Below the pieces are notes generated by a model that was not told where the DNA came from, made no database searches, and saw nothing but the letters and a program-made list of their open reading frames with translations. A program made the translations under genes and the position numbers. 44,896 bases of DNA from an uncultured Flavobacteriales bacterium (lineage in GTDB: Bacteria > Bacteroidota > Bacteroidia > Flavobacteriales > BACL11). How positions within the stretch are numbered: the stretch's first letter is position 1; each line of letters starts with the position of its first letter. Location of the stretch: positions 1 to 44,896 of the forward strand of contig CASIBH010000009.1 of the NCBI GenBank assembly GCA_949372805.1, given 5' to 3'. Shown piece by piece: positions 17,968 through 23,086 of this stretch.

Positions 17968-18040
17968 TGCCCGATGGTGTAACTGGCAACACGTCTGTTT
18001 TTGGTGCAGAAGAGTCTAGGTTCGAAACCTAGTCGGGCAA
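17968..18040 (+). tRNA. tRNA-Gln (TTG)
   Basis: 73 bases. Acceptor stem TGCCCGA with TCGGGCA, including the weak U1-A72 pair typical of tRNA-Gln; discriminator A. The anticodon arm TCTGT-TTTTGGT-GCAGA gives UUG. T arm CTAGGTTCGAAACCTAG. CCA is not encoded. Confidence 0.95.
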
Positions 18041-18054
18041 CAAATTTCACAAGG

Positions 18055-18124: not shown

Positions 18125-18154
18125 TTGACAAATCATCAATTTTATCTAGATTTG
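18125..18154 (+). promoter_or_regulatory. Promoter of the repeat-rich T9SS cargo gene, TTG-N19-TAGATTTG
   Basis: TTG at 18125-18127 and TAGATTTG at 18147-18154, spacer 19, a full consensus match. It gives a leader of about 40 bases before the ATG at 18200. Confidence 0.7.
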
Positions 18155-18199: not shown

Positions 18200-20839
18200 A
18201 TGAATAAATTATCTACTCTATTTTCAAAAAGGTCATTTTCCTTTTTAATTTCTGCACTATTTGCATCTGTAATATGTGCACAAAGTTTTTCTCCAACTGT
18301 AAATGTTACTCTTTCAAATAACGACTGTGGACTTTCAGCTGATTTATCAATTCATGTTGATCAAGACTCAGGTGAGACTGATATAGATGCCTCAATTTTC
18401 AGCTCTGATGTTGGTTCATTTGATTTGTCAACACTCTTAACTGGAGATACTGTTGGAATGGCAGCTTTAAACTTCAACAGTGGAAGTTCTGTTACAACTG
18501 ACTTAATTGTTGGAGCAACATCTAATTTATCAACTGTTGTTTTATCAATTGATGCTAGCAATGGAAGTACATTAGGTTCTTTTACAATGTCAAATTCTAG
18601 TAACGGTGGTATTCTTGTAACTGCTACAAGTCCAGGAGATGGAAATACAACTACCGGTGGATACACCTCTACTGCTACATTCTACAATTTATTTGTAAAT
18701 CCTAATAATGGAGTCCTAAATTTTTATTCAACAATTAATTCTGAACTTGGACAGTCAGATTCTCAATCATTCATGTTTTACTTATCTTGTTTAGATTTCT
18801 CGCCTACTGTTAGTGTTTCTTTATCCAATCTAAATTGCGATAGTCTTGCTGATTTAACTGTAAGTGTAGCTCAAGATGCTGGCGAGGCTGATATTGCAAG
18901 TGCAGTATTTAGCTCTGATGGCGGTCAATTTACAATTTCTTCTATGAATGTTGGTGATGTTATTGGTACAGCTACAATGACAGCTGGTTCTAATTCATAT
19001 AATACTGATTTAGTTGTTGCAACAGTTGTCTCATCTAATCAAGCAATAATTTCTGCTATCGATAATATTTCTGGGCTATCTATTGGGACTTTTGATATTG
19101 AAAATACACTTTCTGGTATTAATGTTACTGCAACTTCCCCTGCCGATGGAAACTCAACAACAAGCGGTAATTCTTCAACTGCAACTTTTAATAATATCTT
19201 TCATAACCCTAATAATGGAGCCTTAACTTTTACAGCTACTTCAACATCTGAACTTGGAAGTGTTTCTTCTGAAACTTCTGTTTTTATGATGTCTTGTGTT
19301 GATTTTACTCCAACAGTAAGTGTTTCACTTTCTAATCTTTTGTGTGATAGTGTTTCTGATTTAACAATTAACGTTGCTCAAGATGCAAATGAAGTGGATA
19401 TGGATACAGCAATATTTTTATCTGATGCTGGTTCTTTTAGTATATCTACAATGAATATTGCTGACATGATTGGTTCAGCTACTATGACTTATGGTGGTAA
19501 TATTTCTTTAACAGCTGATCTTTATGTTTTATCTACTGTATCACCTGATTTAGCTAATATTGAAGCAATAGATATTTCTTCAGGAATGACTTTAGGCTCA
19601 TTTTTAATTGAAAACTTATCTTCTGGAGGTATTAGCGTAACTGCTACTAGTCCAGCAGACGGAAATACTCTAACTAATGGAAATTCTTCATCTGTTACTT
19701 TTAATGGAATTTATACTAATTCTTCAAATTCGTTAACAACTTTTACTTCTAATATAACTTCTGAGCTTGGAGATTTTGATACTCAGAGTTTTTCGTTTAA
19801 TATCAATTGTGTTACTTTTTCTCCAAATGTTGGAGTTAGTCTTTTAAATTTAGATTGTGATAGTTTAAATGATTTAACAATTACAGTAAGCCAAGACCCA
19901 TATGAGGTTGATATGGATACTGCTCTTTTTTCATCTGATGGTGGTTCATTTACTATATCGACAATGAGTGTTGGGGATACTATTGGTTTTGCTTCTTTAA
20001 TTGCAGGTACAAACTCATTTACAACAGATTTATTAGTAAGTTCAATTGTATCTTCAAGTCAGGTTATTGTTGAATCTATAGATATTACTTCGGGATTAGT
20101 TTTAGGAACATTTGATGTTTCAAATAATTTAACTGGTGGAGTTTCTGTAATAGCTACTAGTCCTGCAGACGGAAATAATATTACTTTAACAGGAAACAGT
20201 TCTTCAGTTACATTTAACAATGTATTTTTAAATCCAAATGCAAGTACACTTAATTTTACATCTACTATAACTTCTGAACTAGGTGATGTAGATACACAAA
20301 GCTTTAGTTTCAATATTGTTTGTCAGTGTATTACTCAATATTTAGATGTTATTATTACAGCATGTGATGATTTCACATGGGACGGTATTGTTTATGATTC
20401 TACAGGTATTTATATAAATACTTACACAGATTTATTAGGTTGTGATAGTATTGTTACACTTAACTTAACAATTAATAATAGTTCTGCAGGTTCAGTGGAT
20501 ATAACTGAATGTGATGAATTTATATGGGATGGTATTGTTTATGACTCTACTGGTTCATACACGAATACTTATACTGATGTAAATGGGTGTGATAGTTTAA
20601 TGACTTTAAATTTAACAATCGACAATAGTTTTAACGATGTCTTAGTAATAAGTGCATGTAATGATTATACATGGCTTGGTGTTGTTTATGACTCTACAGG
20701 ATTATATACTAATACTTATACTGGCTCTAATGGATGTGATAGTTCATTGACTTTAGATTTAACAATCAATAATAGCTCTATTGGATCAGTAGATGTTACA
20801 GCATGTGATGACTTTCACATGGGATGGTATTGTTTATGA
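18200..20839 (+). CDS. Repeat-rich T9SS cargo, N-terminal part (frameshifted)
   Basis: 879 residues up to a premature stop. Signal peptide of about 27 residues (ends VICAQ). Four repeats of about 170 residues follow, starting at Phe30, Phe200, Phe369 and Phe540. Each opens with F-S/T-P-x-V-x-V-S-L-x-N and contains SSDxGxFxIS, VTATSPADGN and a closing SELGxxxxQSF. They are probably beta-sandwich modules. Then come the first Cys-bearing 49-residue repeats. In the fourth of these, the reading frame breaks at 20813-20816 (GACTTTCACATGG where sister repeats read GACTTTACATGG or GATTTCACATGG), giving a DDFHMGW end and a stop at 20837. One base removed restores a single frame to 21842 of 1213 residues. 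A full consensus promoter is upstream. This is a surface protein or adhesin by architecture; ligand unknown. Confidence 0.85.
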   Translation: MNKLSTLFSKRSFSFLISALFASVICAQSFSPTVNVTLSNNDCGLSADLSIHVDQDSGETDIDASIFSSDVGSFDLSTLLTGDTVGMAALNFNSGSSVTTDLIVGATSNLSTVVLSIDASNGSTLGSFTMSNSSNGGILVTATSPGDGNTTTGGYTSTATFYNLFVNPNNGVLNFYSTINSELGQSDSQSFMFYLSCLDFSPTVSVSLSNLNCDSLADLTVSVAQDAGEADIASAVFSSDGGQFTISSMNVGDVIGTATMTAGSNSYNTDLVVATVVSSNQAIISAIDNISGLSIGTFDIENTLSGINVTATSPADGNSTTSGNSSTATFNNIFHNPNNGALTFTATSTSELGSVSSETSVFMMSCVDFTPTVSVSLSNLLCDSVSDLTINVAQDANEVDMDTAIFLSDAGSFSISTMNIADMIGSATMTYGGNISLTADLYVLSTVSPDLANIEAIDISSGMTLGSFLIENLSSGGISVTATSPADGNTLTNGNSSSVTFNGIYTNSSNSLTTFTSNITSELGDFDTQSFSFNINCVTFSPNVGVSLLNLDCDSLNDLTITVSQDPYEVDMDTALFSSDGGSFTISTMSVGDTIGFASLIAGTNSFTTDLLVSSIVSSSQVIVESIDITSGLVLGTFDVSNNLTGGVSVIATSPADGNNITLTGNSSSVTFNNVFLNPNASTLNFTSTITSELGDVDTQSFSFNIVCQCITQYLDVIITACDDFTWDGIVYDSTGIYINTYTDLLGCDSIVTLNLTINNSSAGSVDITECDEFIWDGIVYDSTGSYTNTYTDVNGCDSLMTLNLTIDNSFNDVLVISACNDYTWLGVVYDSTGLYTNTYTGSNGCDSSLTLDLTINNSSIGSVDVTACDDFHMGWYCL
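18287..20326 (+). repeat. Four imperfect ~510-base repeats (A1-A4)
   Basis: Units start at 18287, 18797, 19304 and 19817, with lengths of about 510, 507, 513 and 510 bases. They are clear at protein level (FSPTVxVSLSN start, SPADGN core, SELG end) but diverged at DNA level, so they are old duplications. All four lie in the N-terminal part of the T9SS cargo gene. Confidence 0.85.
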
Positions 20840-21360
20840 CTCTACAGGATCATATACTAATATGTATGTGGATCAAAATGGATGTGATAGTTCAATGACT
20901 TTAAATTTAACAATAATAACTGGTTCTGCTGGTTCATTAGATATTACAGCTTGTGATGACTTTACATGGGATGGTGTTGTTTATGATTCAACAGGTTCAT
21001 ATACTAACATATATACAGGTACTAATGGATGTGATAGTTTAATAACTCTTAATTTAACTATTAATAATAGTTCAGTAGGTTCAGTTGATATTACTGCGTG
21101 TGATGATTTTACATGGGATGGTATTGTTTATGATTCAACTGGTTCATACACTAACACATATTCAGGTGCTAATGGATGTGATAGTTTAATGATTCTTAAT
21201 TTAACAATAAACAATAGTTCAGTTGGTTCAGTAGACATTACAGCGTGTGATGATTTTACATGGGATGGTATTGTTTATGATTCAACTGGTTCATACACTA
21301 ACACATATACTGATGTAAATGGCTGTGATAGTGTTATGACTTTAAATCTAACAATCAATG
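20360..21360 (+). repeat. Seven tandem 147-base repeats with two Cys each
   Basis: The landmark TGTGAT (or TGTAAT) falls at 20363, 20510, 20657, 20804, 20952, 21099 and 21246. Spacing is 147 every time except 148 between units 4 and 5, which pinpoints one extra base. Each 49-residue unit reads roughly ACDDFTWDGIVYDSTGSYTN, then T-x3-N-G-C-D-S and T-L-N-L-T-I. Similar Cys-paired units are common in Bacteroidota surface proteins. DNA identity is high between units 5, 6 and 7, so the array is recombination-prone. Confidence 0.93.
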
Positions 21361-21842
21361 TTGGTCCTGTTGTTGAAATAATTTATAATTCTTCATTAGG
21401 AACTTTAACTGCAAATAACATTACAGGAAGTACATCTCCTTACACTTGGCTTTGGAATACTGGTGAATTAACACAATCAATTTCCGTTGATCCATCTGTT
21501 TTATCTTACTGGTGTGTTGTTAGTGATGCAAATGGTTGTCTTTCAGATACAGTATATTTTTCTATTACTACAGGAGTTGATGAAATATTAGATTCTAGAC
21601 TGTTAGTTTATCCAAATCCAGTTAATGATATTTTAAATATTGACTTTACTTTTAAAAATAACCAAAGTGTTGAATTAAAAATTGTAAATATTTTAGGTGA
21701 GGTAATGTATTTTGAAAAGGTTAATCAAATAGAATTATCTTATTCTAACAAGTTTGATTTTTCAAAATTCTCTAAAGGATTATATTTTATTAAACTTAAG
21801 TTAGATAAAAATGTTATTACTCAGAAGGTTATCCTTCAGTAA
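20793..21842 (+). CDS. Repeat-rich T9SS cargo, C-terminal part (after frameshift)
   Basis: This frame carries the rest of repeat 4 and repeats 5-7, then a short SprB/PKD-like unit (YTWLWNTGELTQSISV). It ends in a T9SS type A sorting domain: LLVYPNPVNDILNI, then KIVNILGEVMYF, then FSKGLYFIKLK and VITQKVILQ. The ATG at 20793 is only where the open frame begins. True coding in this frame starts at about 20817, after the extra base, and nothing before it resembles a signal peptide. On its own this piece could not be exported. It is therefore the tail of the gene starting at 18200, and either a sequencing error or a real inactivating or phase-changing mutation separates them. Confidence 0.85.
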   Translation: MLQHVMTFTWDGIVYDSTGSYTNMYVDQNGCDSSMTLNLTIITGSAGSLDITACDDFTWDGVVYDSTGSYTNIYTGTNGCDSLITLNLTINNSSVGSVDITACDDFTWDGIVYDSTGSYTNTYSGANGCDSLMILNLTINNSSVGSVDITACDDFTWDGIVYDSTGSYTNTYTDVNGCDSVMTLNLTINVGPVVEIIYNSSLGTLTANNITGSTSPYTWLWNTGELTQSISVDPSVLSYWCVVSDANGCLSDTVYFSITTGVDEILDSRLLVYPNPVNDILNIDFTFKNNQSVELKIVNILGEVMYFEKVNQIELSYSNKFDFSKFSKGLYFIKLKLDKNVITQKVILQ

Positions 21843-21863: not shown

Positions 21864-21892
21864 AAAAAACCCGTTTAGTACGGGTTTTTTTT
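21864..21892 (+). terminator. Rho-independent terminator after the T9SS cargo gene
   Basis: Stem AAAAAACCCGT (21864-21874) with ACGGGTTTTTT (21880-21890), loop TTAGT, T tail. An intact terminator and promoter suggest the gene was functional until recently. Confidence 0.9.
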
Positions 21893-21970: not shown

Positions 21971-23086
21971 ATGAAAAAGATATTTTATTTCTCAGTTCTA
22001 CTTTTTTTTGCATCTGCATGTACAACTATAAGTGAGAAAGAGGCTGAAGAATTTATTGTTTCACACTTTGCAGAAAAAGTAGGCGGAGAATTAGCTATAG
22101 AGCCATTTATATCAGATTTTGATGAATCTTTAGGGCTTCACAATCTAGCTACAGGATGGTCAGGAACTCCTAAGTGGGTAAATGATAAATCGCTTGTAAC
22201 TGCTGACTGGTTCTATGAAGACTCTGTTGTAACAAAAATTAAAAGTATTGAATTATTTGGATCGGTTGCAAGTGTTTATGGAAATGCAAAATCATATATT
22301 TCAGGAATTGAAACTTATAATGGAAATTTTCATTCATTAGTTTCAAAGGAAAAGGGCAAAGTTATTTTTAAAAGACATTCTTGGGCTAGCTCGCAGTATA
22401 GAAGAACTGCAAATAGTTTTGTATGGCCTTCGACAAAAATCGAAGGAGCTTTGTCTATGTATAATAGAATGAGGTATGCTATGATTAATATGAGAACCAA
22501 TGACGCGAAATTAATTTCCGATAGCTTAGTTGATTTAGATCCAAAGCTTGCAGTTGCACATTTAGGTCAAATTAATGCTCTATGGATGGACGGGAAAAGG
22601 TCTGAATTAGATGCTTTACTTAATGATATTAATTCAAAAATTGATTCGGCATCTCAAGCTGAAAAATATACTTTAGGCATTTTTTCTGCTTCTAAATCAG
22701 CTTCAGAAATACGATTGAAAATAGAAAAAGCTTTATTATTTGCAAGTGCAGATCCTATGTTAAGGGGTTGGCATGGATACTGGACAGATGATGTTGATGA
22801 TAAAATAGCAACTTTAAAAGAAGGTTTGTTTAGATATCCTGAATCAAGTATCCTAAATAATATTATGGGTTATGCTCTGATGGATCAAAATAAATTTGAT
22901 GAAGCATTGAATCATTTTAATGTTTATGTAACAGTACATCCAGAAGAACCAAATGCGTATGATTCTATGGGTGATTTTTGGTTAGCAACAGGTGATTCAC
23001 TAAAAGCCAAAGAAATGTTTTTAAGAGCTTTCGAAATTAATAGTAGTTTTACAGCTTCTAAAGAAAAAGCTGATAAATTAAACTAG
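21971..23086 (+). CDS. TPR-containing lipoprotein
   Basis: 371 residues. A lipoprotein signal ends FASAC with lipidated Cys17. Residues about 22-140 resemble a cystatin/NTF2-like alpha+beta domain (a helix EAEEFIVSHF, then ADWFYEDSVVTKIKSIELFG and YNGNFHSLV strands). I see no active-site residues I can name. Residues about 150-371 are helical, with TPR units clearest at 281-355 (SSILNNIMGYALMDQNKFDE and AYDSMGDFWLATGDSLKAKE). It is likely a periplasm-facing scaffold or substrate-binding lipoprotein. It stands alone between the cargo gene's terminator and the rimP promoter. No specific function assigned. Confidence 0.75.
   Translation: MKKIFYFSVLLFFASACTTISEKEAEEFIVSHFAEKVGGELAIEPFISDFDESLGLHNLATGWSGTPKWVNDKSLVTADWFYEDSVVTKIKSIELFGSVASVYGNAKSYISGIETYNGNFHSLVSKEKGKVIFKRHSWASSQYRRTANSFVWPSTKIEGALSMYNRMRYAMINMRTNDAKLISDSLVDLDPKLAVAHLGQINALWMDGKRSELDALLNDINSKIDSASQAEKYTLGIFSASKSASEIRLKIEKALLFASADPMLRGWHGYWTDDVDDKIATLKEGLFRYPESSILNNIMGYALMDQNKFDEALNHFNVYVTVHPEEPNAYDSMGDFWLATGDSLKAKEMFLRAFEINSSFTASKEKADKLN

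Follow-up and report, generated by a model that had tools for sequence, protein, structure and literature searches.

A frame break in the repeat array of a T9SS surface-protein gene from an uncultured Flavobacteriales bacterium probably reflects a consensus error

In the draft genome of an uncultured marine Flavobacteriales bacterium, a gene for a predicted surface protein is split by a single extra base inside a tandem-repeat array. Our results favor the view that a single, ordinary gene of some 1213 codons occupies the locus (18200-21842) and that the frame break is an error of the consensus sequence, a reading to which we assign a probability of roughly 0.86. The gene lies in the 44,896-nucleotide stretch of DNA that was analyzed (hereafter, the window), which belongs to contig C9 of a draft genome (G000) of 25 contigs and 1.17 Mb that is 64% complete and has a GC content of 30.7%. 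The closest relative of this genome is FRAM18_bin220 (G001), a marine Flavobacteriales MAG of the same genus. When three genomes of the genus were examined, an orthologue of the repeat gene was found in one other genome; a search of the genome contigs with the repeat gene matched a single locus, and a search of viral contigs gave no match.

All features of the locus lie on the + strand. A tRNA-Gln (TTG) gene detected by ARAGORN (17968-18041) is the direct upstream neighbor and lies outside the gene; it is followed by a candidate Bacteroidota-type promoter (18125-18154), assigned by consensus match, with TTGAC at 18125 and TAGATTTG at 18147, the latter fitting TAnnTTTG. The first reading frame, ORF1 (18200-20839; 879 aa), is backed by 83% identity to FRAM18_bin220 and consists of a putative signal peptide, four repeats of ~165 aa, array units 1-3 and the beginning of unit 4. 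Its N-terminus, MNKLSTLF...ASVICAQS, appears signal-peptide-like by eye, and past the extra base it runs out of frame to the terminus DDFHMGWYCL*. ORF2 (20793-21842; 349 aa) overlaps ORF1 over 20793-20839 and carries units 4-7, a further C-terminal region and the T9SS type A sorting domain. Thus, in the sequence as given, the signal-peptide-like start and the sorting tail are in different frames, as an earlier note on this DNA had stated; the length of 1213 residues that it gave for the intact protein is correct by arithmetic. The same note had placed a promoter, a signal peptide and a terminator upstream of the break, which agrees with our findings for the first two; the intrinsic terminator is instead downstream of the gene, at 21864-21890. 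Beyond it, the gene at 21971-23086 is fast-evolving (dN/dS 0.35; 51% identity to the relative), and its neighbors are mostly 75-99% identical to the relative; by eye, its product has a lipoprotein-like start and a tetratricopeptide-like end.

The sequence supports assigning the product to the T9SS type A cargo proteins, which is also how the earlier note had described it. Por_Secre_tail profiles matched ORF2 only, at 21606-21833, and both scores exceeded the curated cut-offs (PF18962, 59.6 bits against a cut-off of 27; TIGR04183, 47.5 bits against 23). Furthermore, the genome encodes the T9SS translocon SprA (SprA_N, 567.7 bits, C1:87504-89060) and has 36 further sorting-tail matches beyond the repeat gene. 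With its C-terminal domain, its signal-peptide-like start and SprA in the same genome, the gene resembles known T9SS type A proteins and differs from them in nothing but the frame break; neither its ~165-aa nor its 49-aa repeats gave a convincing Pfam or NCBIfam match. Matches of ORF1 and ORF2 to Peptidase_M43, Glyco_hydro_49 and other Pfam families covered only short stretches of repeat sequence and were rejected as spurious. Structure prediction for ORF2 gave a nearly all-beta model with low confidence (pLDDT 59), and no match to a solved structure was found.

The array (20353-21359) consists of seven 147-base (49-codon) units, whose starts at 20363, 20510, 20657, 20804, 20952, 21099 and 21246 give spacings of 147, 147, 147, 148, 147 and 147, confirming that the single odd step is that from unit 4 to unit 5. 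The extra base is a C in unit 4, and its placement at 20812 or at 20816 is equivalent; tblastn with the relative's protein independently placed the break at 20814/20815. The deviating spelling of unit 4 had been pointed out before; at the break the unit resembles a blend of the two synonymous Asp-Phe-Thr spellings that are present in the other units. The site is free of simple repeats and homopolymers (longest run, TTT), of A/T runs of at least 8 and of any recognized slippery heptamer. The chance of a break falling inside the array is about 3.5%, and its position there hints mildly that the repeats caused difficulty in building the consensus. A paralogous 49-aa array with a type A tail occurs elsewhere in the genome (G000:C2:1-1716; L030), shares ~75% DNA identity with the window array and is open over 523 aa, running off the contig start.

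To assess the background of such events, frame breaks were defined as proteins of one genome that match the other genome in two successive frames, after which the candidates were filtered and their DNA alignments inspected. From the window's genome, 339 kb entered the comparison, and the relative contributed 776 kb. Four candidates were left out, three as antisense or start-region artefacts (C1:3805, C4:14485 and C2:48700) and one as a messy contig end (C6:314). When ~282 kb of coding DNA from the window's genome was aligned with its closest relative, ~18 genuine-looking breaks were left, a rate that applies to a sample chosen around T9SS-tail genes and is not a random-sample estimate. From this, 2.9 breaks are expected per 45 kb (1.6 without the cluster at C2:15.5-19.5 kb) and 0.13-0.23 in the 3.6-kb repeat gene. 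The window holds one, and no second frame break relative to FRAM18_bin220 was found in its ~45 kb; one break is no excess over chance given the indel background of the assembly. The unbroken state of the window's other genes relative to FRAM18_bin220 had at first suggested a clean assembly of short reads, a view that the wider two-genome comparison overturned.

The breaks affect genes of several kinds. T9SS-tail genes are broken on C1, C2, C3 (twice), C4 and C9, and the broken non-T9SS genes include lipA (lipoyl synthase), a porin gene, a DUF2520 gene and two photolyase-related genes. Indels of the same type lie in unrelated genes, housekeeping genes included, as expected of an assembly or sequencing artefact. 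For lipA the genome has a single match (G000:C5:1696-2536), which a one-base insertion near position 1959 of contig C5 splits in two, and breaks of this kind will mislead pathway calls for the MAG. About nine one-base indels are packed into the 4 kb of G000:C2:15496-19441 (L030), across a T9SS gene and the two photolyase-related genes, where the consensus seems to be of poor quality.

The indel spectrum of the genome was also informative. Insertions made up 14 of the 18 breaks and deletions the other 4; the inserted base was G or C in 10 of 14 cases in a genome of 30.7% GC (P = 0.002), and a single insertion of the 14 fell inside a run of at least 4. The event in the window, a C added outside a run, is typical of this spectrum. 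Natural indels and slippage are expected mainly in A/T runs. Insertions are the main error type in PacBio data (PMC6362602), and most errors in consensus reads are linked to homopolymers (PMC12007338). The long-read indel errors described in the Kastor paper (PMC12007338) resemble those found here in that isolated one-base indels split conserved genes and in that some of the insertions have no homopolymer link; the two sets differ in that the errors of that paper are mostly homopolymer-linked, whereas the breaks of the window's genome mostly are not. The errors of the window's MAG may be of a long-read kind.

The orthologue in FRAM18_bin220 (L009; G001:C3:119379-123178) has the same architecture and gene neighborhood as the window gene, and the two proteins are 83% identical. 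Its array (L009 7176-8350) has eight units that are highly alike, in contrast to the seven more diverged units of the window; the unit number thus differs between the species by one whole in-frame unit. The relative's array is also frame-broken, at other positions: unit 2 contains both a +1 and a -1 change, and unit 4 has a deletion. Across ~299 kb, FRAM18_bin220 yielded 44 filtered breaks, with a spectrum like that of the window's genome and a higher density, and a hand count of the filtered list revealed no clear T9SS-tail enrichment among them. Over the region that corresponds to the window it has about ten breaks, one of them in nusA, which is whole in the window; therefore, most breaks of the relative are errors in its sequence, and its breaks lend no support to switching. 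The study from which FRAM18_bin220 comes reported long-read MAGs built with metaFlye from PacBio Sequel II reads (PMC8254474), and FRAM18_bin220 is probably one of them, judging from the errors it carries and from its assembly into few, long contigs.

Both halves of the gene evolve as those of an intact gene. In comparison with the relative, dN/dS is 0.13 for the part that precedes the array and 0.18 for the tail, and both halves are under purifying selection. Furthermore, the 49-aa repeat is widespread in genomes of the family, and arrays in other genera mostly form open frames of at least about 1000 residues. In several of these the array and the sorting tail share one frame (G036:C201, G008:C52 and G025:C45); a few arrays contain in-frame stops (G008:C61 and G036:C158). 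No break at the position of that in the window gene was present in the relative's array or in the other-genus arrays examined.

Three origins had been offered for the break: an assembly or sequencing error, a recent mutation, and on/off switching of a surface protein through the repeat array. The genome-wide background of like indels strongly favors the first, as does the fact that breaks also hit genes with no reason to be switched, such as lipA and the photolyase-related genes. A genuine, recent one-base insertion would make the gene a pseudogene or strain variant, and the N-terminal part of the protein, lacking a sorting signal, would be secreted into the periplasm. The extra base is, after all, present in the sequence as given, and a low dN/dS is also what a very young mutation would leave. 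The window is also free of breaks outside the repeat gene, which tells somewhat against an error. Outside the C2 cluster, moreover, 6 of 10 breaks lie in T9SS-tail genes, whose share of the sequence sampled is about 29% (binomial P = 0.04), and this mild over-representation might be a sign that surface genes are truly decaying. However, indels of the same type occur in lipA and the photolyase-related genes here and in nusA of the relative, and a spectrum rich in insertions, G/C-rich and outside homopolymers, in an AT-rich genome, is unlike that expected of natural slippage, so that we consider this explanation unlikely. The stronger proposal that the insertion is real and segregating, leaving part of the cells without the protein, and that T9SS surface genes of the genus are hot spots of frame mutation seems improbable. 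A frameshift that was real in the population would indicate that a marine flavobacterium loses or switches one of its surface repeat proteins.

Reversible phase variation through the array would suit a surface protein with tandem repeats, and the broken array of the closest relative might be taken to point the same way. Nevertheless, because the unit length of 147 is 3 x 49, the frame is preserved when units are added or removed, and the array is thus incapable of switching the sorting tail; the site has neither a short repeat nor a homopolymer, the relative's breaks lie elsewhere (one a +1/-1 pair in one unit) in a genome with 44 filtered breaks, and most homologous arrays of other genera have open frames. 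The earlier suggestion of switching is therefore unsupported, and we regard it as highly improbable. A programmed ribosomal frameshift or transcriptional slippage could in principle join ORF1 and ORF2, which overlap and are both under purifying selection. Programmed frameshifts are recognized, among other things, by conservation of the shift site (PMC3711429); here, the position of the break is conserved in none of the relatives examined, and the absence of a long A/T run or recognized slippery heptamer also speaks against such a shift, which is barely credible.

We propose that the extra base was inserted by an error still left in the consensus of the MAG, which may be of the long-read type or may have arisen when nearly identical repeat units were blended into one consensus, and that the base would be absent from the organism itself. 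The cell would then most likely read one frame encoding a Sec signal peptide, the four ~165-aa repeats, the seven 49-aa repeats and the type A sorting domain. Such a protein would be exported through SprA and then anchored or released, and would probably have its role at the surface. Split T9SS surface genes in draft genomes of this kind should be read first as consensus errors, and examination of the indel spectrum together with a check of housekeeping genes goes far toward settling such cases without reads.
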